Shown here: positions 6,688 to 38,179 of the stretch, piece after piece | Numbering within the stretch: the first letter of the stretch is position 1 | How the letters are laid out: every line of letters begins with the position of its first letter | Origin: Stenotrophobium rhamnosiphilum | GTDB lineage: Bacteria > Pseudomonadota > Gammaproteobacteria > Nevskiales > Nevskiaceae | Length of the DNA stretch: 64,000 nucleotides | Reading direction: 5' to 3' | Assembly: GCF_003052265.1 (NCBI RefSeq) | Contig: NZ_QANS01000002.1 | Location: forward strand, 434,001 to 498,000 | Position numbers and translations under genes: made by a program | Notes under the pieces: model-generated | Seen by the model: the letters and a program-made list of their open reading frames with translations, nothing else | What the model was told of the DNA's origin: nothing | Databases searched by the model: none

Positions 6688-9600
6688 TCAGGCGTCCTCC
6701 AGTACTGCGATGACCTGCCCTGATTGCACTGTGCGACCGGGCTGGCAACGCAGTTCGCGAATCTTGCCGGATGCTGGGGCGAGGATTTCCATTTCCATCT
6801 TCATGGATTCAACGACGACCAGAACTTGCCCACGCTCAACAGTGGCGCCTTCTTCAACCTGAATCTTCCAGACGTTGCCAGTGACCTGTGCATTCACCGC
6901 GCTGCAGCCTGCGGGAATGTCATCACCGCCCATATCTGCGACAACATCGTCAACGCTGAAACTATCGAGACCACGCTCTTTCCAATCTGCACGCTCAGCT
7001 TCAAACGCTGTTTGTTGACGGCTCTTGAAGGCATTGATGTCGGCAGCGTTGCTGTCGAGGAACTTGGCGTAATCCGCATACGAGAACGTGGTGTTTTCGA
7101 TCTTGATGGGATAACGGCCATGCGGGAATGCTGCACGCGCTTCTTCAAGCTCTGCGTCACTCACTTCAAAGAAACGGATTTGATCAAAGCAGCGCAGCAA
7201 CCAAGGTTGCTCGAAGGCTTCGGTCTTGCGCCAGCGATTCCACATCTGGATTGTGCGGCCAAACAACTGATAGCCACCCGGACCTTCCATGCCGTACACG
7301 CAAAGATAAGCGCCGCCGATGCCCACCGCATTCTCTGGCGTCCAGGTACGCGCCGGGTTGTACTTGGTGGTGACGAGGCGATGACGTGGATCTACTGGTG
7401 TTGCCACTGGTGCGCCAAGATAAACGTCGCCCAAGCCCATCACCAAATAGCTCGCGTCGAACACGATGCGATGCACATCGTCGATGGAATCGAGACCGTT
7501 AATGCGACGGATGAACTCGATATTGTCCGGGCACCATGGCGCGTTGGGACGCACCAGTTCCTGATACTTACGCATCGCCAGCTGAATCTGTGGATCGTTC
7601 CACGACAGCGGCAGATGCACGATACGGCTTGGCAGCGTGACATCTTCTGCGCGTGGCAATGCACGTTCGATTTCAGCAAGAACATCAAGCAAGCGCTGAC
7701 GCTTGAGGACGTGACTATCGAAATGGATTTGCAGCGAGCGAATGCCCGCGGTGAGATCAATGATGCCCGGCAGCTTTGCTGCGCTGACTGCTTCTGAGAG
7801 CAGGTGCACACGTAGACGCAACGCAAGATCCAGCGCCATCGGGCCGTATTCAACGAGCAAGTAGTCATCACCGCAGCGGCGATAAACCACAGGCACTGGG
7901 CCTTCATCAGAGCGCGCCAAGATTGGCGAGCCTAGATCAGCAATTTTTGGCGCATTGACTTGCACCGTCTTTGCTGCCTCAGCAGGAACAAAACGAATCT
8001 TGTCACCGGGCTTGAGCTGACCGGTCTTCCAAAGATCATCACGCGCGATGACAGCTGGGCAAACAAAACCGCCGAGGCTCGGACCATCAGGGCCGAGGAT
8101 GATCGGCATATCGCCAGTGAAGTCGATCGCACCGATGGCGTAAGCGTTGTCGTGAATGTTTGAAGGATGCAGCCCTGCTTCGCCACCATCCGCACGCGCC
8201 CACTGCGGGCGTGGGCCCATCAAGCGAACGCCAGTGCGCGCGGAGTTGAAGTGCACTTCGTACTCGGCGCTGTAGAGCGCTTCGATATCGAAGTCCGTAA
8301 AGAAATCAGGTGCGCCGTGCGGACCATAGTGAACACTGATCGTCCAACTGCGGCTCAGTACTGGACGTTCGTTGAAGGCCAGCACTGCAGGTGCGGATTC
8401 AGCAGAACCAACACTGTCAATATGCAGCGTATCGCCCGCTTTAAGAACGCCAGTGGCGTGCCCACCAAAACCACCCAAACTGAACGTTGCGCCAGAGCCG
8501 AGATACTGCGCGACATCAAGACCGCCACGCAGTGCGAGATAGCAGCGCTGGCCTGCGCCTTCGATGGTGCCGAGTGCAAGTACCTGCCCTGCGCGGACTT
8601 CGATGGGCTCGTAGAACGAGAGCGGCTGATCATCCAAGGTCGCGCGCATGGCTGCGCCGGTTAGTGCAATGACCGTGTCGCAGCGAAACTTCAGTGTCGG
8701 ACCCATCATCGTGCATTCAAGTGCGGCTGCGCCTTCGCGATTGCCGACGATGCGGTTGGCCAACCGGAATGAGCGATCATCCATCGGGCCTGAAGGCGGA
8801 ATGCCAACGCCCCAATATCCAAGACGACCCGGCCAATCCTGCACACTGGTCTGCGCGCCGGGCGCGATCACTTCAATCACATTGGGCTGGAATACGAAAT
8901 CTTTAAGGACGCGTGTCGCAACGTTGCCGCTGAGGAATTCGTCCGACGCGATCACCGCGCGCAAATAACCCAGATTGGTTTCGATGCCGCGAACCGTGGT
9001 CTCTTCAAGCGCCTTCGCCAGATTGCTGATCGCTGCCTGACGGTCATCACCGTAAGCGATAATCTTGGCTAGCATCGGATCGTAGTACTGCGAAACTTCT
9101 GTGCCTGTCTCAATCCAGCCATCAACGCGAACGCCTTCAGGGAAGCTCACTTCCGTCAGCAGGCCCGTCGACGGGCGGAAATCCTGTTGCGGATTTTCGG
9201 CATAGAGACGCACTTCGACCGATGCACCTTTCGGCACCAGCGTTTCCTGTGCAGGCAACACCAGTTCACCCGCGGCTTGTTTGATCATCCACTCAACGAG
9301 GTCGATACCGAATACAGATTCAGTGACTGGGTGTTCAACCTGCAAGCGCGTATTCACTTCCAGAAAGTAGAAGTCTTCACGTGCGACGTCGTAGATGAAT
9401 TCAACGGTGCCTGCAGATTCGTACTTCACTGCTTCGCCAAGCGAACGCGCTGCAGCGTAAAGGCGTTGACGCATTGCGTCCGTCAGGCCCGGCGCTGGCG
9501 TTTCTTCTACGACTTTTTGATTGCGACGTTGCAGTGAGCAATCACGCTCACCCAGCGACACCACTCTGCCCTTGCCGTCACCAAAGATCTGCACTTCAAC

Positions 9601-10221
9601 GTGGCGCGCGGTAGAGATGAAGCATTCGAGATAAACGCGGGCATCGCCAAAGCTGGCCGTTGCCATGCGCTGTACGGCTTCAAACTTTGAGCGCAGCTCT
9701 GCAGCATCATGGCAAAGCTGCATGCCGATACCGCCACCACCCGCCGTGCTCTTGAGCATCACCGGATAGCCAATGCGTGTTGCTTCGCTCAACGCTTGTT
9801 CAACGTCATCCAGCAAGCCACTGCCCGGCAATAAAGGCACGCCGCTCTTCTGTGCGATCTCACGTGCGGTGTGCTTGAGACCAAACTCACGAAGATGCTC
9901 AGGGCGTGGGCCGATGAAGCGGATACCGTGTTCAGCAAGCTTCTCGCAGAACGCGGCGTTCTCACTCAGGAAGCCATAGCCCGGATGCACAGCTTGCGCA
10001 CCAGTCTTGAGGCAAGCCTCGATGATGGCATCGACCTTGAGATAACTCTCACGCGCTGGGGCAGCACCGACATGCATGGCTTCGTCTGCGGACAGCACTG
10101 ATGAAGAGAAACGATCCGCATCGGAATACACCGCAACAGACGACAGTCCCATCTTGCGAACAGTGCGAACAACTCGACCCGCGATTTCGCCGCGGTTAGC
10201 GATTAGTATTTTCGTGAACAT
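6688..10221 (-). CDS. Guanidine carboxylase (urea carboxylase family), biotin-dependent
   Basis: 1177 residues in the order typical of the family: biotin carboxylase domain (1-450, with an ATP-grasp glycine loop GGGGIGMQ and HPGYGFLSEN), KipA-like and KipI-like carboxyltransferase domains (about 460-1000), a linker, and a C-terminal biotinyl domain with the ESMKMEME motif (biotinyl-Lys1141). The family ATP-dependently carboxylates urea or guanidine. Here the guanidine-I riboswitch and the two deiminase subunits in the same operon argue that the substrate is guanidine, giving carboxyguanidine; that is an inference from established work on riboswitch-linked carboxylases. It starts three bases after the upstream subunit gene stops. 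Confidence 0.93.
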   Translation of the reverse strand: MFTKILIANRGEIAGRVVRTVRKMGLSSVAVYSDADRFSSSVLSADEAMHVGAAPARESYLKVDAIIEACLKTGAQAVHPGYGFLSENAAFCEKLAEHGIRFIGPRPEHLREFGLKHTAREIAQKSGVPLLPGSGLLDDVEQALSEATRIGYPVMLKSTAGGGGIGMQLCHDAAELRSKFEAVQRMATASFGDARVYLECFISTARHVEVQIFGDGKGRVVSLGERDCSLQRRNQKVVEETPAPGLTDAMRQRLYAAARSLGEAVKYESAGTVEFIYDVAREDFYFLEVNTRLQVEHPVTESVFGIDLVEWMIKQAAGELVLPAQETLVPKGASVEVRLYAENPQQDFRPSTGLLTEVSFPEGVRVDGWIETGTEVSQYYDPMLAKIIAYGDDRQAAISNLAKALEETTVRGIETNLGYLRAVIASDEFLSGNVATRVLKDFVFQPNVIEVIAPGAQTSVQDWPGRLGYWGVGIPPSGPMDDRSFRLANRIVGNREGAAALECTMMGPTLKFRCDTVIALTGAAMRATLDDQPLSFYEPIEVRAGQVLALGTIEGAGQRCYLALRGGLDVAQYLGSGATFSLGGFGGHATGVLKAGDTLHIDSVGSAESAPAVLAFNERPVLSRSWTISVHYGPHGAPDFFTDFDIEALYSAEYEVHFNSARTGVRLMGPRPQWARADGGEAGLHPSNIHDNAYAIGAIDFTGDMPIILGPDGPSLGGFVCPAVIARDDLWKTGQLKPGDKIRFVPAEAAKTVQVNAPKIADLGSPILARSDEGPVPVVYRRCGDDYLLVEYGPMALDLALRLRVHLLSEAVSAAKLPGIIDLTAGIRSLQIHFDSHVLKRQRLLDVLAEIERALPRAEDVTLPSRIVHLPLSWNDPQIQLAMRKYQELVRPNAPWCPDNIEFIRRINGLDSIDDVHRIVFDASYLVMGLGDVYLGAPVATPVDPRHRLVTTKYNPARTWTPENAVGIGGAYLCVYGMEGPGGYQLFGRTIQMWNRWRKTEAFEQPWLLRCFDQIRFFEVSDAELEEARAAFPHGRYPIKIENTTFSYADYAKFLDSNAADINAFKSRQQTAFEAERADWKERGLDSFSVDDVVADMGGDDIPAGCSAVNAQVTGNVWKIQVEEGATVERGQVLVVVESMKMEMEILAPASGKIRELRCQPGRTVQSGQVIAVLEDA

Positions 10222-28200: not shown

Positions 28201-28713
28201 TTAACCGCCTAGCAGCGTACCTTCAAGCAAGGGGCCAACAAGCGGCAAGCCACTGATAAATCCCGGAGTGAGCGGCAAGCCCGGCAAGTTACCGCCGACG
28301 CCCGCAGGCGCACCAAAAATGCCGCCGACCAAGGGGCCAACAACAGGTACGGGACTCACAACACCACTGACCACGCTAATTACATTCGCAACCGTTGGCC
28401 CCACTACTGGTAGCGTGCCCAACAATCCAGTCAGCGGACTAATCGACGGCAAACTCGGCAAACCTGGGAGACCACCGCCGACATTCACCGGCGCACCCAA
28501 AACGCCACCAAGCAGGGGGCCAGCAACTGGCACCACGCTGACAGCGCCACCAACCAAGCCAACCACATTCACAACGGTTGGACCCAACACAGGCAAGCTG
28601 CCCAACAAGGCAACAACTGGGCTGATTGCCACAGGCGCATTTGTTGCGGCATGAGCGGCTGGTGCCGCAGCGATAAACAACAGAGCGGCCGCAGCAAACG
28701 ACTTACGATTCAT
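28201..28713 (-). CDS. Repetitive Gly/Val/Leu/Pro-rich secreted protein, 170 aa
   Basis: No known family recognised. A signal peptide (1-22, FIAAAPAAHA) is followed by two related units: LGSLPVLGPTVVNVVGLVGG... and LGTLPVVGPTVANVISVVSG..., each with a PVAGPLLGG or PVVGPLVGG block, a GAP.NVGGGLPGLP-type linker and more glycine. The composition is nearly all G, V, L, P, S, T and A, with almost no charged residues. It could be a hydrophobic coat or matrix-like protein. Adenine/guanine-poor codon choice follows the composition. Confidence 0.7.
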   Translation of the reverse strand: MNRKSFAAAALLFIAAAPAAHAATNAPVAISPVVALLGSLPVLGPTVVNVVGLVGGAVSVVPVAGPLLGGVLGAPVNVGGGLPGLPSLPSISPLTGLLGTLPVVGPTVANVISVVSGVVSPVPVVGPLVGGIFGAPAGVGGNLPGLPLTPGFISGLPLVGPLLEGTLLGG

Positions 28714-30303: not shown

Positions 30304-31143
30304 TTAGATCTGCGGGGTGTCGTCTGGCACGAAGAAGTCCGGCATGAACTTGGTGGTGCCTGGCACTGCGGCGTAGTGCGAGAAGTCGCGCATGCCTTCT
30401 GCGTGCAGCACGAGATCGTCGATGGCGAAGTTGCCGGTGTATTCGCGGCTCGGCTTGGTCAGGATCACATGCGCTGCGTCGGCCATGATCTCTGGTTTGC
30501 GTGACTGCTTCATCAACGCTTCGCCGCCAATCATTTGAATCGCAGCGGTCGCAATGCCAGTGCGTGGCCACAGCGAGTTGGCGGCGATGCCGTCTTTGCG
30601 GAATTCTTGTGCCCAAGCCAGCGTGCACAGGCTCATGCCGTATTTGGCCATGCTGTACGCAACATGCGGTGCGAACCACTTGGTCGACATATCCAGCGGC
30701 GGGCTCAGCGTGAGGATGTGTGGATTCGCTGCTTTCTTCAGATGCGGAATGCAGGCGCGGCCAACCATATACGTGCCGCGTGCGTTGATGCCGTTCATGA
30801 GGTCGTACTTCTTCATGTCGGTTTGCATCGTGCCGGTGAGGCTGATGGCGCTAGCGTTGTTGACCAGAATGTCGATGCCGCCAAAAGTGTCGACCGTTTT
30901 CTGCACGGCTTCATTCACCTGCTGCTCATCGCGGATGTCGCAAAGAATCGGCAGCGCTTTACCGCCTGCCTTTTCGATTTCTTCAGCCGAGCTGTAAATC
31001 GTGCCCGGCAACTTGGCGTGCGGTTCTGCAGTTTTGGCAGCGATGACGACATTGGCGCCATCTTGTGCAGCGCGAATCGCAATGGCCAGACCGATGCCAC
31101 GCGAACCGCCGGTGATAAATAGGGTTTTGCCTTTCAAGCTCAT
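30304..31143 (-). CDS. Short-chain dehydrogenase (HSDL2-like)
   Basis: 279 residues from the ATG at 31143, with ggag upstream; an in-frame TTG at 31155 overlaps that site. TGGSRGIGLA, NNASA and YSMAKYG give the SDR cofactor and catalytic motifs. The long N-terminal match (KLPGTIYSSAEEIEKAGGKALPILCDIRDE) is typical of the HSDL2-like subgroup, which in eukaryotes is peroxisomal and lipid-related; the bacterial substrate is unknown. Confidence 0.88.
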   Translation of the reverse strand: MSLKGKTLFITGGSRGIGLAIAIRAAQDGANVVIAAKTAEPHAKLPGTIYSSAEEIEKAGGKALPILCDIRDEQQVNEAVQKTVDTFGGIDILVNNASAISLTGTMQTDMKKYDLMNGINARGTYMVGRACIPHLKKAANPHILTLSPPLDMSTKWFAPHVAYSMAKYGMSLCTLAWAQEFRKDGIAANSLWPRTGIATAAIQMIGGEALMKQSRKPEIMADAAHVILTKPSREYTGNFAIDDLVLHAEGMRDFSHYAAVPGTTKFMPDFFVPDDTPQI

Positions 31144-31277: not shown

Positions 31278-34004
31278 CTATTGCAGCATCGAGGTCATAC
31301 GAGCAATGCGCTCGGCCTGAATGCGATTGAGATTGCGGAAGATGGTGGCGGCAATCCATGGATAGCGAACACGCAGGCGCTCCAGATCTTGCGAGTCGAA
31401 ACGCAGCAGACGTGCCGAGGTCGTGGTATCGACATTGGCCGTGCGGCGCTGGCCAAAATAGCCGGCCTCGCCCATCACCGCACCACGACCCATTGTGGAC
31501 AGCACTTTGTGTTCACCGTGGCTATCAACCCAAGCTTCGAGCGTGCCATCGACGACCACATAGATGTCGCGTGCGAGATCACCTTGCTGAATGACACGCT
31601 TACCGGTGGGAACGTTTTCCAACTTCGACATCAGCGCAAACACACGCGCCTGACGCAGCGATAAACCGGAGAACAATGGAATGGTGTGCTGCGGGCTCTG
31701 ACCCAGATCAAGGCGTAGCAAATCCCACAAGGTCACGATGCGCAGCTTACTGCCCAGCGCAGGCGTCAAGGTGATGTTCATGAACCAAGCCACAAACAAT
31801 GTGAACGCTGAGAGCAAACCAAACTGCACCTGCGTGATCAGTTCGCTGCCGGTGAATACGAGAAAGCCCAAGCACAGTGCCACAGTGCTGAGCGTGATCG
31901 GTCGCAACACACTGACCAATGCGCTACGCACTGCGGGCTCTTCCTTGCCGCCTGCACGAGCATCGGCGTTAAAGCGTGCGAGGTATTGAATGGTGTCGTC
32001 TACCGCGATACCAATGACGATACACGCGATCAAACAGGTGGTTGGACTCAAACTGATATTCAGCAGACCCAAGGTTCCAAAATAAATCGCAACCGGCACA
32101 ACCGTCGGCAGCAGCGCAATCAAACCTGCGCGCATCGAAGTGAACATCAGACTCAGCAACAACCAGATGCCGAAGGTTGCGATGGCAATCGACTCCAACT
32201 GCCCTGCTGCAATTTCTTGCACGGTGCGCGTTGCGAGCACAGGACTACCAGTCACTTGTGCGTTCAACGGTTGCGGCAATAACTTGATGCGTTTCTCTAT
32301 GCGTTGCACCAAATCGGCAACAGGCACGGAACCATCAACGTTGATACGAACACTGAGCAAAGCCGTGCGGAAGCGTGAATCGATCACATGTCGCATCTGA
32401 TCGTTGCTGGCAAAAACCAGTAGCTGCTTCACTGCCGCAGGATCATCCGGCACGCTGAAATACAGCGGACTATTATTGTTGAGGCTTTGGTGAATCAGTT
32501 TGAGGTGATCGATATAAGAAACAACGGCGCCCACTTCTGGCTGTTTACGCAGCCATTCTTGGAGATCGTCGACTTCGCGGATCAGGCTCGGGTCCGTCAG
32601 CGCATCATTCACATGCGTCTCGATCAGCACCGAGATCATGTTGGCGCCATTGAACGCGGTGTTGATCGCTTCAAAATCCGTACGCACCAGCGCCTTTTCA
32701 TTAAAGCTCTTGATGAACTCAGAGCCGGCGTGAATGCGTGACGCGAAAATCAGATCCAAAGGAATCATGATCAGCGCGATAGTGATAATCCAGAAACGCC
32801 ATTTCTGATCGAAGCGCGCCAGGCGATGGGCCCAATTAGCGAACATGGTCTCGCCCATGGATCGCGGCTTGTGCGTCGTGCCAATAATGGCCAAGGCAGC
32901 CGGCATGAAAGTCAGCGAGAGCAGCACGCCGAATGCCGAACCGATACTGGCCAGCACTGCAAAGTGTTTGATCGCTGGCAGTGCATTCAACAGCAGCGCC
33001 GAGAAGCTGATCACAGTGGTGCCTGCTGAGAGCAGCAAGCCCACAGATGCACGATTGATCAGCCAAGCCGTTCGCTGTGGCTTAGTCGTGAGTGACGTTT
33101 CTTGTTGCGCAGTGAAATACGCAGACAGCAGATAAATTGAATACGACAGCCCCAAGGTAATGACCAGCGGCGGCACAATCGCTGTCACCAAATTCATCGG
33201 GATGTGTAGAAATGCTGCGACAGCCATCGTCCACAACAGCGCAGTGCCTACAGTAGCTGCGGCCACCAACATCGCACGCAGACTACGAAAAGCGATGAGC
33301 AACAGAAGCAAGATCACACCAAAGACTGCGGGGATGGTGAATTTGATGGTCTTGATTAACGCCTGTGTCGTTGCGGCACGAGCAATCGGTGTGCCGGTGA
33401 TCCAGACTTTTGCATCACCAGAAACTTCGCGAACGATGTTACGAATCTGCGTTGGGTAATCGCGCTTAATAAAATCGCTTTCACCCACATCGCCCATCAC
33501 CAGTGCAAACGAAACGATCTTTCCATCCAGCGAAAGCAAAGTGCCGTTATAGAGCGGATTAGATGCAAACTGCCTGGGGAATTCTGCAATGAGTGCCGGG
33601 TCTCTCTTGGCTTGTTCAGCAAAGCTACTGACCTCAACATCTTCTCCCTGTGCGAGAAGATTCGGCGCACTCGCCAACGACACGACCGTGTTAACACCCT
33701 CTAGCGCGCGTAGGCGCTGGGTAATCTGATCAATGCGATCCAGACTCTGCGCCGTGAAAACAGTCTCGAATTTAACCGCAACGATCACCGCATCGGCATC
33801 GCCAAAATTTTTGCGGACGCGATCTGAAACGGCACGATCTGCATCGCCTGCTGGCAACAGATGCTCGACGGCCGGATCAATCACCAAGCGCGGCGTCATC
33901 GTTACCGGGTTCACGCACAACAGGAGCGCAAAAACCGACAGCAGGGTCGTAAACAACACGACCCTATAAGGATGCTTAGCCAGCCACTCCACTGTTGCTT
34001 GCAT
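31278..34004 (-). CDS. MMPL/RND-family exporter with C-terminal cyclic-nucleotide-binding domain
   Basis: 908 residues. Two MMPL/RND halves are seen, each with a membrane block (about 230-380 and 590-740), an initial membrane helix and a large periplasmic loop. After the last membrane helix, residues about 780-900 form a cNMP-binding domain (GKRVIQQGDLARDIYVVVDGTLEAW ... GRGAVMGEAGYFGQRRTANVDTTTSARLLRF) with the GEAGYF phosphate-binding cassette. MMPL proteins move hydrophobic compounds such as hopanoids or lipids. It follows a LolA-like gene by 11 bases, and a class III cyclase gene is upstream on the same strand. Confidence 0.9.
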   Translation of the reverse strand: MQATVEWLAKHPYRVVLFTTLLSVFALLLCVNPVTMTPRLVIDPAVEHLLPAGDADRAVSDRVRKNFGDADAVIVAVKFETVFTAQSLDRIDQITQRLRALEGVNTVVSLASAPNLLAQGEDVEVSSFAEQAKRDPALIAEFPRQFASNPLYNGTLLSLDGKIVSFALVMGDVGESDFIKRDYPTQIRNIVREVSGDAKVWITGTPIARAATTQALIKTIKFTIPAVFGVILLLLLIAFRSLRAMLVAAATVGTALLWTMAVAAFLHIPMNLVTAIVPPLVITLGLSYSIYLLSAYFTAQQETSLTTKPQRTAWLINRASVGLLLSAGTTVISFSALLLNALPAIKHFAVLASIGSAFGVLLSLTFMPAALAIIGTTHKPRSMGETMFANWAHRLARFDQKWRFWIITIALIMIPLDLIFASRIHAGSEFIKSFNEKALVRTDFEAINTAFNGANMISVLIETHVNDALTDPSLIREVDDLQEWLRKQPEVGAVVSYIDHLKLIHQSLNNNSPLYFSVPDDPAAVKQLLVFASNDQMRHVIDSRFRTALLSVRINVDGSVPVADLVQRIEKRIKLLPQPLNAQVTGSPVLATRTVQEIAAGQLESIAIATFGIWLLLSLMFTSMRAGLIALLPTVVPVAIYFGTLGLLNISLSPTTCLIACIVIGIAVDDTIQYLARFNADARAGGKEEPAVRSALVSVLRPITLSTVALCLGFLVFTGSELITQVQFGLLSAFTLFVAWFMNITLTPALGSKLRIVTLWDLLRLDLGQSPQHTIPLFSGLSLRQARVFALMSKLENVPTGKRVIQQGDLARDIYVVVDGTLEAWVDSHGEHKVLSTMGRGAVMGEAGYFGQRRTANVDTTTSARLLRFDSQDLERLRVRYPWIAATIFRNLNRIQAERIARMTSMLQ

Positions 34005-34015
34005 GAATTAGCGCT

Positions 34016-34834
34016 TTAGTCCGCGGTATAGAAACTGCTGACGTTGAAGTAACGCTCAGAGAGCTTGTCGACGCTGGTCAAGCCAGTGATTTTGAGCGTG
34101 GTGTGAGACTTGGAGTGCAGGTCTTCCATCAACGCTTCCGACACATACCAGTTGCCGCCCGCCTGTTTAAGCGATTTCACTGGCGATGAGAGGCGCTTAC
34201 GAATCTTGGCGCCTTCATAAAACTCAACCTTGAGTGCCACGCAGGTTTTTTGATCGACCCAAGCGCGGATCAAACTGTAATTTGATTTGGTGCCAGTGCC
34301 AGTGCCAGTGCCCGTTCCAGTGCCCGTGCCCGGTGTTCCGGTGCCTGGCGTCATCGCCAGAACATGCATCTGCTGACCTTCTAAAGCTTGCGGCTTTTCC
34401 AACTTCACCGGGCCGCCAGAGAATGCGTTCTGCACTTGCTTGATGTCGTTGTAAGAGAGATCAGTGCCAAACAAAGGACTGTCTGCAGTGCCGCCCAAAA
34501 TTCGGCGCACGCGATTGAGCGCAGGCAGGAAGATGAACATGTCATCTCGCTCGACGCCTTCACGCACCAAATACGCTGCATTGTTGAGATCAGGTGGCGC
34601 TTTGATTTTGACCATGGCGCGAACCAAATCGTTTTCGCGCTTGGCGTACAGACGACCACGCAACATGCGCTCGCCGCCTGCTGGATCAAACGCGTTCAAT
34701 TCAAATTCTTGAATACGCATGATCTTGGGAATATTGCCGCGCATGCATTCGAGGATCTTGTCCGTCGCCGCATCGTTGGCCTGTGCCGTGCCCGCTACAA
34801 GCAGTAGCGCGAGAAGCATTTGGATTCGCTTCAT
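34016..34834 (-). CDS. LolA-like outer-membrane lipoprotein-sorting protein with a Gly-Thr repeat
   Basis: 272 residues from the ATG at 34834, with gggg at good spacing (an ATG at 34840 lies too close to it). A signal peptide (about 1-18, ending TAQA) precedes a LolA/LolB-like fold (EFELNAFDPAGGERMLRGRLYAKRENDLVRAMVKI...) seen in proteins that accompany MMPL exporters. In the middle of the fold is an added PGTGTPGTGTGTGTGTGT run encoded by a hexanucleotide repeat. It probably receives lipid from the exporter. Confidence 0.87.
   Translation of the reverse strand: MKRIQMLLALLLVAGTAQANDAATDKILECMRGNIPKIMRIQEFELNAFDPAGGERMLRGRLYAKRENDLVRAMVKIKAPPDLNNAAYLVREGVERDDMFIFLPALNRVRRILGGTADSPLFGTDLSYNDIKQVQNAFSGGPVKLEKPQALEGQQMHVLAMTPGTGTPGTGTGTGTGTGTGTKSNYSLIRAWVDQKTCVALKVEFYEGAKIRKRLSSPVKSLKQAGGNWYVSEALMEDLHSKSHTTLKITGLTSVDKLSERYFNVSSFYTAD
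34285..34348. repeat. Hexanucleotide tandem repeat inside the LolA-like gene
   Basis: On the plus strand, units of cagtgc (cagtgccagtgccagtgcc and variants with cgtgcc and ttccag) encode the Gly-Thr run on the minus strand. Units of six bases keep the frame when the number changes, so length may vary between strains. Confidence 0.85.
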
Positions 34835-34969
34835 TGCCATCCCCTTTTCACTATTCTTGTTGTCCGCTATGGCCATCTTACCTGCCAAGGTTTGTTCTTA
34901 TTTATATAATAATGATTTAATCGGTTGATCTATAGAAACACTCGGGCGATCCGACATATCGACCTGCCA

Positions 34970-37900
34970 TCACACTGTAGTTCTCATCCCAATTTTCTTG
35001 AATGATTCCACAGCCCGGGCACGCAATTCTGCGGCCAAGCGTTCATCAGCGGCCCAATGGGCTTGCGCGCGGATCAGCCAAGGTTCAAATCCAAGCGCAC
35101 CGCTCTGCTTGATCAAACAATCCATGCGCTCCAAACCCTGCTCGGCACGCGGGCGCAGCGCATCGGTGACGGGCATATCCAACAAGCTAATCCATGCTCG
35201 CATTTCCCACACGCGAGACTGCGATCGCTGCGCGCTAGTGACTGCTTCTTCGCCAGTGCGAAGTGCATCTTCTAAACGACCTGCACCGCGATAGGACTCG
35301 CACAGCACTGAGAGATAGTTGGCTTCAAATTGATGCGCCAAACCGCCACGCGCATAGATCGGCCGACCCGGTTCCATAAACTCAATCGCCTTGTCGTACT
35401 CGCCGCGCAGATTGTGTGCGAGCCCTAAAGCACGCAGCGCAATCGCGTGGAAGAACTTGCTGCCAAACGACTGAGAACGCTCATAAGACTTACGAGCTTC
35501 AAGCAAGGCCAACTCGTGTCGCCCGGTGAACCAGGCAAAGTCGACCAAATTGGCGTGCATCCAACTTGCGGATCGATCTTCTTTGGCAGCAAACGCTGCT
35601 GCTTCGAGCAAATTAGTTTCAGCTTCTTGCAACTGGCCCATCCAGGTCAGCATCAAGCCATAGAAGCCACGCGACATGAAATTGTCTTCACCAATCGGCT
35701 CGGTGCGCCACTGCGAACCACCGGCGGAATCGACGAGCGCAATACCGTCACGAGGTCGCCCTGCAGAGTTATGCGTCAGCAACAGCGCTAAGCGGAAGCG
35801 CTTCACCAAATTTTCGTGTCCATGCTGCAAACAAAGTTGAACTGCTTCGGCACCAAGCTTAGCGGCAGCTTCTGCGTCGCCGTAATGCACTAACTCGTTG
35901 CCGTAAGAAATCATCAACTCGGCAGCGCCTGCAATATCGCCGCACTCATCGGCAAGCTGGCGCGCTTCGGCATAGGCGCCGTCGACTTCTTCTACCGAGA
36001 TCTCAGTGAACTGCGCCATGCGAATTAAACCGGCACGCGCGGCGATGCGTTGCTTGATGATCTCTGGTGTCTGCGGCCCTTGCAGTAGATGTTTGGCGGC
36101 CAAACGAAATTGCTCAACCGTCACGCGACTATCACGCGAGGAAGCCCAGATTGCAGAGCGCAGATTCCAGCTACCGGCCTTGGGTAATTCCCCTGCACAT
36201 TTCCAGTGATGCGCAATGCGCAGCGCTACTTCAGTGGTTGGCGCAGTGGGTGGATTCTGCGCTTCCAGCGTCGCGGCCAAACGTGCATGCGTAAGTGCGC
36301 GCTGCGCTTCCAACTGCGCTTGATACGCCACCTCTTGCATCAGCGGATGGCAGAAAACGTATTCGTTATCGTTGCTACGCTGTTGAACAAAGCCAGAGTC
36401 TTCTAGCGCAGAGAGATGATGACCAAACTCTTCATCCTGCGTTTCTACCAATTCAGCAAGCGTCTTCTGGCAAAACTCTTGGCCGATCACCGCTGCGGTC
36501 TGCAACAAGCTCTTGTGCTCAGTCGGCAAACGATCAATACGAGCAGCGAGCAGCGCATGCACCGTATCTGGAATCGGCCACTCAACAATCGGTTGAATCA
36601 ATTCATAGTTGCCCATGGCACCTTGCAGATGACCTGAATCCGCCAGCGCCTGCACCGCCTCTTCAACAAAGAATGGATTGCCGCTAGCGCGCTGACGAAT
36701 CATTGCAGCAACGCCGTTGAGACTCTCATCTTTTCCGAGCAAACCAATCGCTAAACGTTCCAGCTGCTGCGCGGACAAAGCCGATACTGCGATCTGTTCG
36801 TCGAGATGCGGAATCAAATATTCGCTGATGTAATCCGGGCGATAATTGAGCAGCAGCAAGCAGCGATTTTTGCGAATGTATGAGCAGAGGTTGGCGATGA
36901 ACTCTTCGCTTGCCGCATCCAGAAAATGAAGATCTTCAATCAGCAACACTTGCACCTCATCGCTGCAAGGCAAGTATTGGGCAAAGAGCTCAAACATCTT
37001 TTCCGTTGCATTGGCCGGCGGCTCAGCAACACGTTCATTGCTATCAACTGCGCCGAGAAATTCGAATACACGCGGCAGAATCGCTACGTGAGTCGGGTCG
37101 TGCAGCAGGAAGGTACCCGCAACCAAGCGGCGTACATCTGAAGAACTCGCGCGTTCAGGCAAACCTAAACGCGAGCGCACCAAAGTCTGAACCGGAAACA
37201 GCGGCAAGGCGTTGGCGTATGGAACACCGGTTGAACGATGCACAACAACACCGGACTCTTCACAAGCGCGGGTGAATTCATGGCACAAGCGACTCTTGCC
37301 AATACCAGCGTTGCCGACAACAGCGACCACCTGCCCTTCACCTGCACGCACACGTTCCAGTGCAGCAAGCAAACCAGCAAGCTCGGTATCACGTCCCACA
37401 AATTGCGAACCGCCGCGCGCGAGTGAGCGATCCAAACGCGTACGCAGATTGCCTTTGCCTTCTAGCTCGTAAACTTCTACCGGCTCATCAAGCCCAGCAA
37501 CATTCATGCGGCCCAGATCACGCAGCTGGAAATAACCTTCAACTCCTCGTGCGGTGTAGCGCGATAAATAAACACGACCCGGCTCACAGATGTGTTCCAT
37601 ACGCGCGGCAAGATTCACCGTAAGACCTTGCGCGGTGTAGTCCATGCGCAGATCGTCGCCGATGCTACCGACAATGACTTCGCCAGTATTTAGGCCGACG
37701 CGCATCGAAAGATTGAGGCCTTTCTTTAAGCGCAGATCGTCAGCGAAGCGACGAACCTCAGCCTGCATTTCTAGTGCGGCAAAACAGGCGCGCTGTGCAT
37801 GATCTTCATGCGCGATGGGCGCGCCGAACAAGGCCATGATGCCGTCGCCGGTGTATTGGTTGACGGTGCCTTCGTAGCGATGAACAGCACCGCTCAGAAT

Positions 37901-38179
37901 TGAAAAAAAGCGATCGAGCAGGCCATGCCAAGCTTCTGCGCCTGCTTCTTGCGCGAGCTTGGTGGAGCCTTTGATATCGGCGAACAAGACCGTGACGCGC
38001 TTTCGCTCACCCTGCATAGCCGAACGCGATTTGAAGATGCGATCAGCCAGATGCTTGGGGGTGTAGCTGGCGATATTGGGTTGTGGCGCAGAGGTTTCTG
38101 CAGACAGCTTGCCGCCGCACTGATTACAGAATCGTGCGTTGACCGGGTTGGCAGCTTGGCAAGATGAGCAGGTCTGCAT
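34970..38179 (-). CDS. Class III adenylate/guanylate cyclase with AAA/NB-ARC-like ATPase and TPR region
   Basis: 1069 residues. An N-terminal zinc ribbon (CSSCQAANPVNARFCNQCGGK) leads to a class III cyclase catalytic domain (about 60-240). Both metal-binding aspartates are seen (VLFADIKGST, YTGDGIMALFG), plus NLAARM with the transition-state Asn and Arg. A P-loop ATPase (VAVVGNAGIGKSRLCHEF) and a long helical repeat region follow. The usual adenine-selecting lysine position reads Gln (NQYTGDG), as in many cyclases of this multidomain class. It lies directly upstream of the LolA-like and MMPL-cNMP genes, about 136 bp from the first start. Confidence 0.88.
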   Translation of the reverse strand: MQTCSSCQAANPVNARFCNQCGGKLSAETSAPQPNIASYTPKHLADRIFKSRSAMQGERKRVTVLFADIKGSTKLAQEAGAEAWHGLLDRFFSILSGAVHRYEGTVNQYTGDGIMALFGAPIAHEDHAQRACFAALEMQAEVRRFADDLRLKKGLNLSMRVGLNTGEVIVGSIGDDLRMDYTAQGLTVNLAARMEHICEPGRVYLSRYTARGVEGYFQLRDLGRMNVAGLDEPVEVYELEGKGNLRTRLDRSLARGGSQFVGRDTELAGLLAALERVRAGEGQVVAVVGNAGIGKSRLCHEFTRACEESGVVVHRSTGVPYANALPLFPVQTLVRSRLGLPERASSSDVRRLVAGTFLLHDPTHVAILPRVFEFLGAVDSNERVAEPPANATEKMFELFAQYLPCSDEVQVLLIEDLHFLDAASEEFIANLCSYIRKNRCLLLLNYRPDYISEYLIPHLDEQIAVSALSAQQLERLAIGLLGKDESLNGVAAMIRQRASGNPFFVEEAVQALADSGHLQGAMGNYELIQPIVEWPIPDTVHALLAARIDRLPTEHKSLLQTAAVIGQEFCQKTLAELVETQDEEFGHHLSALEDSGFVQQRSNDNEYVFCHPLMQEVAYQAQLEAQRALTHARLAATLEAQNPPTAPTTEVALRIAHHWKCAGELPKAGSWNLRSAIWASSRDSRVTVEQFRLAAKHLLQGPQTPEIIKQRIAARAGLIRMAQFTEISVEEVDGAYAEARQLADECGDIAGAAELMISYGNELVHYGDAEAAAKLGAEAVQLCLQHGHENLVKRFRLALLLTHNSAGRPRDGIALVDSAGGSQWRTEPIGEDNFMSRGFYGLMLTWMGQLQEAETNLLEAAAFAAKEDRSASWMHANLVDFAWFTGRHELALLEARKSYERSQSFGSKFFHAIALRALGLAHNLRGEYDKAIEFMEPGRPIYARGGLAHQFEANYLSVLCESYRGAGRLEDALRTGEEAVTSAQRSQSRVWEMRAWISLLDMPVTDALRPRAEQGLERMDCLIKQSGALGFEPWLIRAQAHWAADERLAAELRARAVESFKKIGMRTTV

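Follow-up and report, generated by a model that had tools for sequence, protein, structure and literature searches.

We analysed a window of 64,000 nucleotides (nt) from Stenotrophobium rhamnosiphilum (host genome 3.96 Mb in 21 contigs), in whose positions all gene coordinates are given here. At its centre lie three adjacent genes, encoding a class III nucleotide cyclase, a LolA-like protein and an exporter that joins an MMPL transporter to a C-terminal cyclic-nucleotide-binding domain (CNBD). The three open reading frames (ORFs) were confirmed on the minus strand, with the limits given in an earlier note on this DNA, and are transcribed in the order cyclase, LolA-like gene, exporter gene:

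34970..38179, minus strand: class III nucleotide cyclase, 1069 aa (ORF call and Pfam).
34016..34834, minus strand: LolA-like protein (PF17131), start taken at ATG 34834 (Pfam).
31278..34004, minus strand: exporter of the MMPL/RND type, predicted to lie in the inner membrane, with C-terminal CNBD, 908 aa (Pfam, AlphaFold2 and Foldseek).

The LolA-like ORF ends 11 nt ahead of the exporter gene. The gap between the cyclase and the LolA-like gene is 135 nt when the latter starts at ATG 34834, and scanning this gap in the window revealed neither a terminator-like site nor a promoter-like site on the minus strand. The end of ispH lies 54 nt ahead of the cyclase start. The arrangement described in the earlier note, in which the cyclase gene precedes the exporter gene on one strand with a LolA-like gene in between, was thus confirmed by the ORFs and by Pfam.

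The exporter belongs to the MMPL family (PF03176, E 2.5e-41, 142.2 bits against a cut-off of 20.5, in two stretches) and carries a cNMP_binding domain (PF00027, E 5.7e-15, 55.5 bits against a cut-off of 27.5) in which the cassette Glu and Arg are present. An AlphaFold2 model built from a 24-row alignment has a mean pLDDT of 84.9. Foldseek ranked MmpL4 (E 1.3e-25) and MmpL5 at the top for this model, followed by MmpL3, with HpnN at rank 31, and the overall fold is that of the MMPL/RND proteins; a profile search of the PDB with the exporter returned HpnN first. The best NCBIfam match was HAE3 (TIGR00921, 180.8 bits), under its cut-off of 351.9, and the actII model scored 106.4 against a cut-off of 874.7. 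Assignment as an HpnN orthologue was rejected on score (TIGR03480, 103.7 against 751.85; NF052374, 53.6 against 1100). The proteins matched by fold export lipids or siderophores and are of the MmpL kind. As modelled, the fold is of the lipid-exporter kind, and we infer that the protein is a proton-driven, 12-helix pump of the inner membrane. Its cargo may be a lipid, as suggested by the fold and by the gene neighbours of distant relatives. In L112, L119, L123, L124 and L132, genes for PqiA, MlaD/PqiB and a PqiC-type lipoprotein precede the lolA-exporter pair in the same direction, an assignment for which one member was scanned per gene cluster. In one family member (L069), two of these three Pqi-type clusters also occur upstream, with two other genes intervening.

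Three segments at the C-terminus of the exporter are central to what follows:

31371..31619, minus strand: CNBD, residues 796-878, putatively on the cytosolic side (Pfam PF00027 and sequence matches to PDB entries).
31431..31472, minus strand: phosphate-binding cassette GEAGYFGQRRTANV, residues 845-858 (conservation across 96 exporter CNBDs).
31650..31739, minus strand: linker from the last membrane helix to the CNBD, residues 756-785 (best conserved long segment within the family).

The window cassette GEAGYFGQRRTANV holds Glu846, Arg854, Thr855 and Ala856. All cassette and conservation counts, like the label counts on the exporter tree below, cover the window and the loci L038-L133. Among the 96 exporters with letters at these positions, Gly845 is present in 96, Glu846, Arg854 and Ala856 in 94 each and Thr855 in 81. 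In known cyclic-nucleotide binders, the cassette Glu and Arg contact the ribose and the phosphate. Thr following the Arg is presumably the PKG-like state, which alone does not separate cyclic GMP (cGMP) from cyclic AMP (cAMP). The solved structures nearest to the CNBD, compared by sequence only, are those of PKG, EPAC, PKA, SthK and CRP. Mean pairwise identity among 48 family orthologues is 0.518 over residues 1-755, rising to 0.861 in the linker, 0.698 in the CNBD and 0.907 in the cassette. To judge from these alignments, the CNBD keeps the residues by which known domains hold a cyclic nucleotide, and the earlier description of an exporter CNBD with an intact cassette is borne out.

The LolA-like ORF spans 34016-34888 if read from a TTG codon. 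The ATG at 34834 is the better start and yields a putative Sec-type signal peptide, MKRIQMLLALLLVAGTAQA, recognized by eye. The protein is a member of the LolA_like family (PF17131, E 6e-29, 101.4 bits against a gathering cut-off of 30). A profile search placed a LolA-like gene directly upstream of the exporter at all 55 family loci with room for one (L038-L091 and L095, paralogues included), at 11 of 11 such loci in the order outside the family, and at 12 of 24 in the class. The gap between the two genes, with starts at the relatives' loci taken from a codon-usage gene caller, is -4 to 35 nt in 40 of the 54 family loci scored and up to 666 nt in the others; at L088 a small ORF was called between them. 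This constant co-occurrence in the family, together with the short gaps, makes lolA and the MMPL-CNBD gene a tight pair. The pair is the conserved core of the locus, and the cyclase is a looser partner. Two further features of the LolA-like genes were observed. At L044 a tandem pair of them stands ahead of the exporter (8119-9721, oriented). Within the window ORF, 34290-34330 is a tandem repeat (6.8 copies of the 6-mer GTGCCA, or 3.4 copies of a 12-mer) that reads as a Gly-Thr-rich loop and could differ in length between strains.

At E 1e-80, the MMPL-CNBD exporter was found in 52 of the 58 genomes in the family (truncated at a contig end in G021, in G027 and in one of the G007 copies), so that the fusion is not a chance event. 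An exporter match at E 1e-60 was obtained for 62 of the 85 genomes of the order. Of 369 genomes sampled evenly across the class, 22 match, 21 of them with matches that reach into the CNBD, and an alignment search of a phylum sample gave 73 of 398 genomes at E 1e-90, of which 20, the own genome included, reach the CNBD. The best 80 of 569 matches include the named relatives Solimonas and Nevskia, as well as matches reaching the CNBD in bins of Myxococcota, Desulfobacterales and Omnitrophota. The pump with its CNBD has about 23 to 44% identity in other Gammaproteobacteria, in other classes of the phylum and in the Desulfobacterales and Myxococcota bins. This spread indicates that MMPL-CNBD fusions form an old and sparsely distributed family rather than a peculiarity of this locus.

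The third gene of the set encodes a multidomain cyclase whose Guanylate_cyc (E 2.6e-25), AAA_16 (2.8e-21) and TPR_12 (2.3e-7) matches all lie above the curated Pfam cut-offs:

37460..38005, minus strand: cyclase catalytic domain, PF00211, residues 59-240 (Pfam and a 46-cyclase alignment).
36881..37405, minus strand: AAA_16 ATPase domain with the P-loop GNAGIGKSRL (Pfam).

The N-terminus contains a CxxC...CxxC stretch resembling a zinc ribbon, for which the Pfam zinc-ribbon matches stay under their cut-offs. The nearest NCBIfam model, that of the TOMM kinase/cyclase fusions (TOMM_kin_cyc), scored 261.2 bits, below its cut-off of 705.75. The catalytic motifs are the metal motif LFADIKGST, VNQYTGDG and the tail DYTAQGLTVNLAARM. 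With the residue roles that we take to apply, the two metal Asp, the transition-state Asn and the Arg are all kept (LFADIKGST, TGDG, TVNLAARM), which places the protein in class III. At the substrate positions, Gln stands at the usual Lys and Thr at the usual Asp.

We then mapped the presence of an upstream cyclase onto a tree of 91 exporters (FastTree, several long rows unsure; L092-L095, L101 and L104 left out as too short). A cyclase lies upstream on the same strand, within the fetched stretch, at 22 loci and is absent at 60, and 9 loci with too little upstream room were left unlabelled. The label changes at least 12 times on the exporter tree and at least 7 times on a cyclase tree of 44 rows, calculated by a quick method; the latter leaves out the short distant L108_non_4135 and L131_non_13535, and the cyclases of L134-L143 and L233, whose genomes were already represented. 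Five other families of the order could be scored; the upstream cyclase is present in f2, f3, f5 and f6 and absent from f4. At the class level f117 has it, and among the other scored class loci only L131 (f96). Occurrence in four of the five other order families suggests that the link between cyclase and exporter is probably old in the order, with repeated loss or relocation, including several such events within the own family. Within that family, a cyclase lies upstream in 15 of the 52 exporter genomes against a chance expectation of 0.26 (within 10 kb, same strand), the 15 sharing ancestry. In the remaining family exporter genomes, 11 have a close cyclase relative elsewhere, three a distant one (about 35%) and one a fragment. 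Linked cyclases are separated from the gene that follows by -4 to 276 nt, the L108 copy sharing 4 nt with lolA. Among named strains, Solimonas soli DSM 21787 (L137) has a linked cyclase and S. variicoloris DSM 15731 (L134) does not. At L038 (2641-9077) and L096 (2500-9004), oriented with the exporter on the plus strand, two tandem cyclase genes from different branches of the cyclase tree stand upstream of the pair.

As a control, we inspected 60 other MMPL loci, hand-picked among the matches listed, in ten genomes chosen among those with the link (G050 was searched and not used). No class III cyclase was found on either strand in any of the 60 stretches, which run 5.0 to 12.8 kb upstream from inside the MMPL gene. 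These MMPLs lack a CNBD in the own genome and were taken to do so elsewhere. A LolA-like gene is present in 14 of the 60 stretches. In three of the linked genomes, the CNBD-bearing paralogues L086, L090 and L091 have no cyclase upstream either. Because the control genomes were chosen for having the link, the control speaks to specificity and not to frequency. In the genomes tested, the cyclase link looks specific to the CNBD exporter. A chance juxtaposition of cyclase and exporter was rejected, with 0.26 genomes expected against 15 and none of the 60 control loci showing it. At the distal end of one control stretch, L324, lies an ORF with an unrelated CNBD.

Taken together, these data lead us to propose that the locus encodes an envelope lipid export unit, composed of a cyclic-nucleotide-modulated MMPL pump and a LolA-like carrier, a reading that we regard as almost evenly balanced. 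Driven by the proton motive force, the pump would extract a hydrophobic molecule from the inner membrane and would hand it to the secreted LolA-like protein, the presumed carrier toward the outer membrane. The cytosolic C-terminal CNBD would bind cAMP or cGMP supplied by the cell's class III cyclases, with the neighbouring AAA/TPR enzyme as one of the sources in genomes that keep it. Binding would then alter pump activity through the family-conserved linker. Gene order, domain composition, predicted fold class, conservation and the cyclase link with its control are observed here, whereas the cargo, its transfer to LolA, ligand binding, gating and the sign of its effect are inferred. A more specific form is a lipid export route across the Gram-negative envelope under second-messenger control, in which an MMPL pump would charge a LolA-like carrier in the periplasm and would be switched on or off by cytosolic cAMP or cGMP, a part of it made by the cyclase encoded in the set. 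We hold this form more tentatively, at somewhat short of an even chance.

Class III cyclases are present in nearly all of the exporter genomes examined. All 52 family exporter genomes contain them (1 to 15 each), and G035, the one family genome that has none, is also without the exporter. In the class sample they occur in 20 of 21 CNBD-exporter genomes, G400 being the exception, versus 211 of 348 others, and in the phylum sample in all 19 CNBD-exporter genomes besides the own one. The own genome has five class III and no class I cyclases, together with 13 CNBD matches, nine of which exceed the cut-off; a CRP-like regulator is among them. The adjacent cyclase is thus not necessarily the sole source of the signal, nor a dedicated one. 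One could still envisage a single dedicated operon-level switch, in which the AAA/TPR parts of the cyclase sense the state of the envelope or its lipids and the product gates this exporter only. The specific, apparently old link, seen in 15 genomes against 0.26 of 52 expected, would suit such a switch, but the cyclase has been lost or relocated in many relatives with the cassette unchanged, and a family exporter genome may hold up to 15 class III cyclases; we give it very little credence. In its strict form, a dedicated three-gene system was rejected, since the adjacent cyclase is missing in most relatives.

Alternatively, gating could be real and its signal drawn from the general cyclase pool, the adjacent cyclase mainly serving, for example, a CRP-like regulator and its position being a relic. 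This is in keeping with the five cyclases, 13 CNBD matches and CRP-like regulator of the own genome, with the 11 family exporter genomes in which a close relative of the cyclase is located elsewhere, and with the retention across several families of other upstream genes such as c37 (DUF3307) and c5 (ketopantoate-reductase-like). A relic fits less well with the 4-nt overlap of cyclase and lolA at L108, and with a cyclase that persists while the genes downstream of the exporter change between families, from a short-chain dehydrogenase (SDR) and GreB in many loci of the own family to DUF3450/ExbB in f5 and f6, aldolase/ARD in f2 and f3 and MFS in f117. We consider this alternative distinctly improbable.

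Several observations weigh against the proposed cyclic-nucleotide-gated lipid pump. Some CNBD-like domains do not bind a cyclic nucleotide. The exporter model is less confident in the linker, with a pLDDT of 62-65, and in the cassette block, with a mean of 68. The membrane core of the pump (residues 586-755) has an identity of 0.656 among the 48 family orthologues, near that of the CNBD. Among 17 distant members, the identities are 0.365 for residues 1-755, 0.484 for the core, 0.366 for the linker, 0.334 for the CNBD and 0.436 for the cassette, so that the CNBD as a whole is no better conserved there than the pump. The cassette Arg is lost in two of the 96 exporters and the Glu in two. One exporter without the Arg, L118, comes from a genome (G295) with both class I and class III cyclases; in the other direction, G400/L128 has lost the Arg in a genome with neither class. 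With one case each way, the idea that a missing Arg marks the loss of cyclases was dropped. The co-occurrence of class III cyclases and CNBD exporters in the class sample (Fisher one-sided p 5.5e-4) ignores kinship and genome size. No close relative of the window cyclase was found at E 1e-100 in 22 of the 52 family exporter genomes, and at L057 and L059 other genes intervene between cyclase and lolA. Gln replaces the substrate Lys in all 44 full-length cyclase rows; Rv0386 is reportedly an active cyclase of this Gln type. The canonical Asn is absent from 12 of 24 exporter-adjacent cyclases, where His, Gly or Ser replaces it, and from 6 of 20 other rows. With Asn missing in half of the adjacent cyclases and Gln throughout, the activity and the product of these cyclases are uncertain, and the alignment argues against a uniformly active local source.

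A rival reading is an ungated unit, in which the pump and the LolA-like protein move an envelope lipid, the CNBD has a structural or assembly role or binds another ligand, and the cyclase is a mere neighbour. Such a unit would be compatible with the 60 of 82 scorable exporter loci that have no upstream cyclase, with a cassette that is one residue shorter than that of PKG in the alignment, with the occasional losses of Arg and Glu and with the unremarkable conservation of the CNBD in distant members. It accounts poorly for the retention of Glu and Arg, each in 94 of 96 exporters though overall identity drops to about 25%, and for the contrast between the linked loci and the 60 other MMPLs of the ten linked genomes, none of which has an upstream cyclase. 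We consider an ungated unit rather unlikely.

The gated pump proposed above departs in part from the earlier note, which had the cyclase make the signal that gates lipid export. That interpretation is supported by the CNBD residues, by a cyclase link that is specific in the genomes tested and probably old in the order and by the lipid-exporter fold, and we regard cyclic-nucleotide gating of the exporter as plausible and unproven. The role of the cyclase as the signal source is weakened by the loci and genomes without it and by the adjacent copies without the Asn, which the window copy keeps. Co-occurrence of the three genes, which the note suggested checking, holds for the lolA-exporter pair (55 of 55 family loci) and is looser for the cyclase, upstream in 22 of 82 scorable loci. 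Relatives that keep the exporter with no cyclase nearby, taken in the note as grounds to abandon the idea, are literally what 60 of the 82 loci represent. The signal is diffusible, and almost every exporter genome searched has a class III cyclase, so that gating is not refuted by this; what it does weaken is the claim that the adjacent cyclase is a dedicated source.

The downstream neighbour of the exporter in the window is the SDR gene, which recurs in many family loci:

30304..31143, minus strand: short-chain dehydrogenase (Pfam and synteny).

Further from the unit, 28201-28713 encodes a Gly/Leu/Pro-rich repetitive protein of 170 aa that appears by eye to be secreted and has no Pfam match at E 0.01. 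Other CNBD proteins were also observed. In the own genome, L265:113-1273 (minus strand) encodes a CNBD fused, by eye, to an apparent EAL-type (c-di-GMP phosphodiesterase-like) domain. Separate CNBD proteins lie near MMPL-CNBD exporters at L101:1739-2356, L129:5123-5473 (minus strand) and L151:2117-2485, one of the three being a CRP-like regulator and two being short stand-alone CNBDs. Near an MMPL-CNBD paralogue, L088:3731-5518 (minus strand) encodes a protein with a CNBD, an NTE-type P-loop and a patatin phospholipase domain, and a member of the same cluster is found in L146.

If the proposed gating is correct, cyclic nucleotide signalling would be tied directly to the lipid make-up of the envelope and not via transcription. 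Pumps with a CNBD occur far beyond this order, and some lie next to Pqi genes or to an NTE-type phospholipase with a CNBD, so that control of envelope lipid traffic by cyclic nucleotides would then be widespread. The system would also offer a clean handle at the bench, as pump and sensor are one protein and the two Solimonas strains L137 and L134 differ in linkage.

The earlier note knew of no described system of this type. In the available text of the open-licence literature we likewise found neither an account of a CNBD on an MMPL/RND exporter nor one of post-translational cyclic-nucleotide control of an RND/MMPL lipid exporter. The closest precedents each share a part of the design. MmpL3, MmpL4 and MmpL5 of mycobacteria and the hopanoid exporter HpnN of Burkholderia have the RND/MMPL fold, an inner-membrane location and a hydrophobic cargo, but their matches span only the transporter part of the window exporter. 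We know of no cyclase linked to any of them. The HAE3 family (TIGR00921), the best NCBIfam match yet one below its cut-off, is described by a model without a CNBD. Pairing of an MMPL gene with a LolA-like gene has been seen in operons of Porphyromonas gingivalis (PG1175-81) and Prevotella intermedia, which encode an MMPL protein and an "outer membrane lipoprotein-sorting protein" side by side, as here; those operons also encode a TetR regulator together with ABC ATPases and reportedly respond to iron, and the available text of that report mentions neither a CNBD nor a cyclase (PMC10434189). According to the accessible part of another report, a Thalassolituus protein with both MMPL and LolA-like domains is raised on a long-chain alkane (PMC6304351). 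The MCE lipid transport system PqiABC has counterparts adjoining the lolA-exporter pair in the five distant relatives, whereas none of the scanned ORFs beside the window unit is of this type. Fusion of transporters to regulatory domains has been noted for MFS-CNBD proteins, in a review whose available text gives no example of a CNBD on an RND or MMPL protein (PMC10710835). On the sensor side, SthK carries a C-terminal CNBD behind membrane helices, as the window exporter does, and the two CNBDs match by sequence. SthK, PKG, PKA and CRP are channels, kinases or regulators, whereas the protein encoded here would place such a sensor on a proton-driven exporter.

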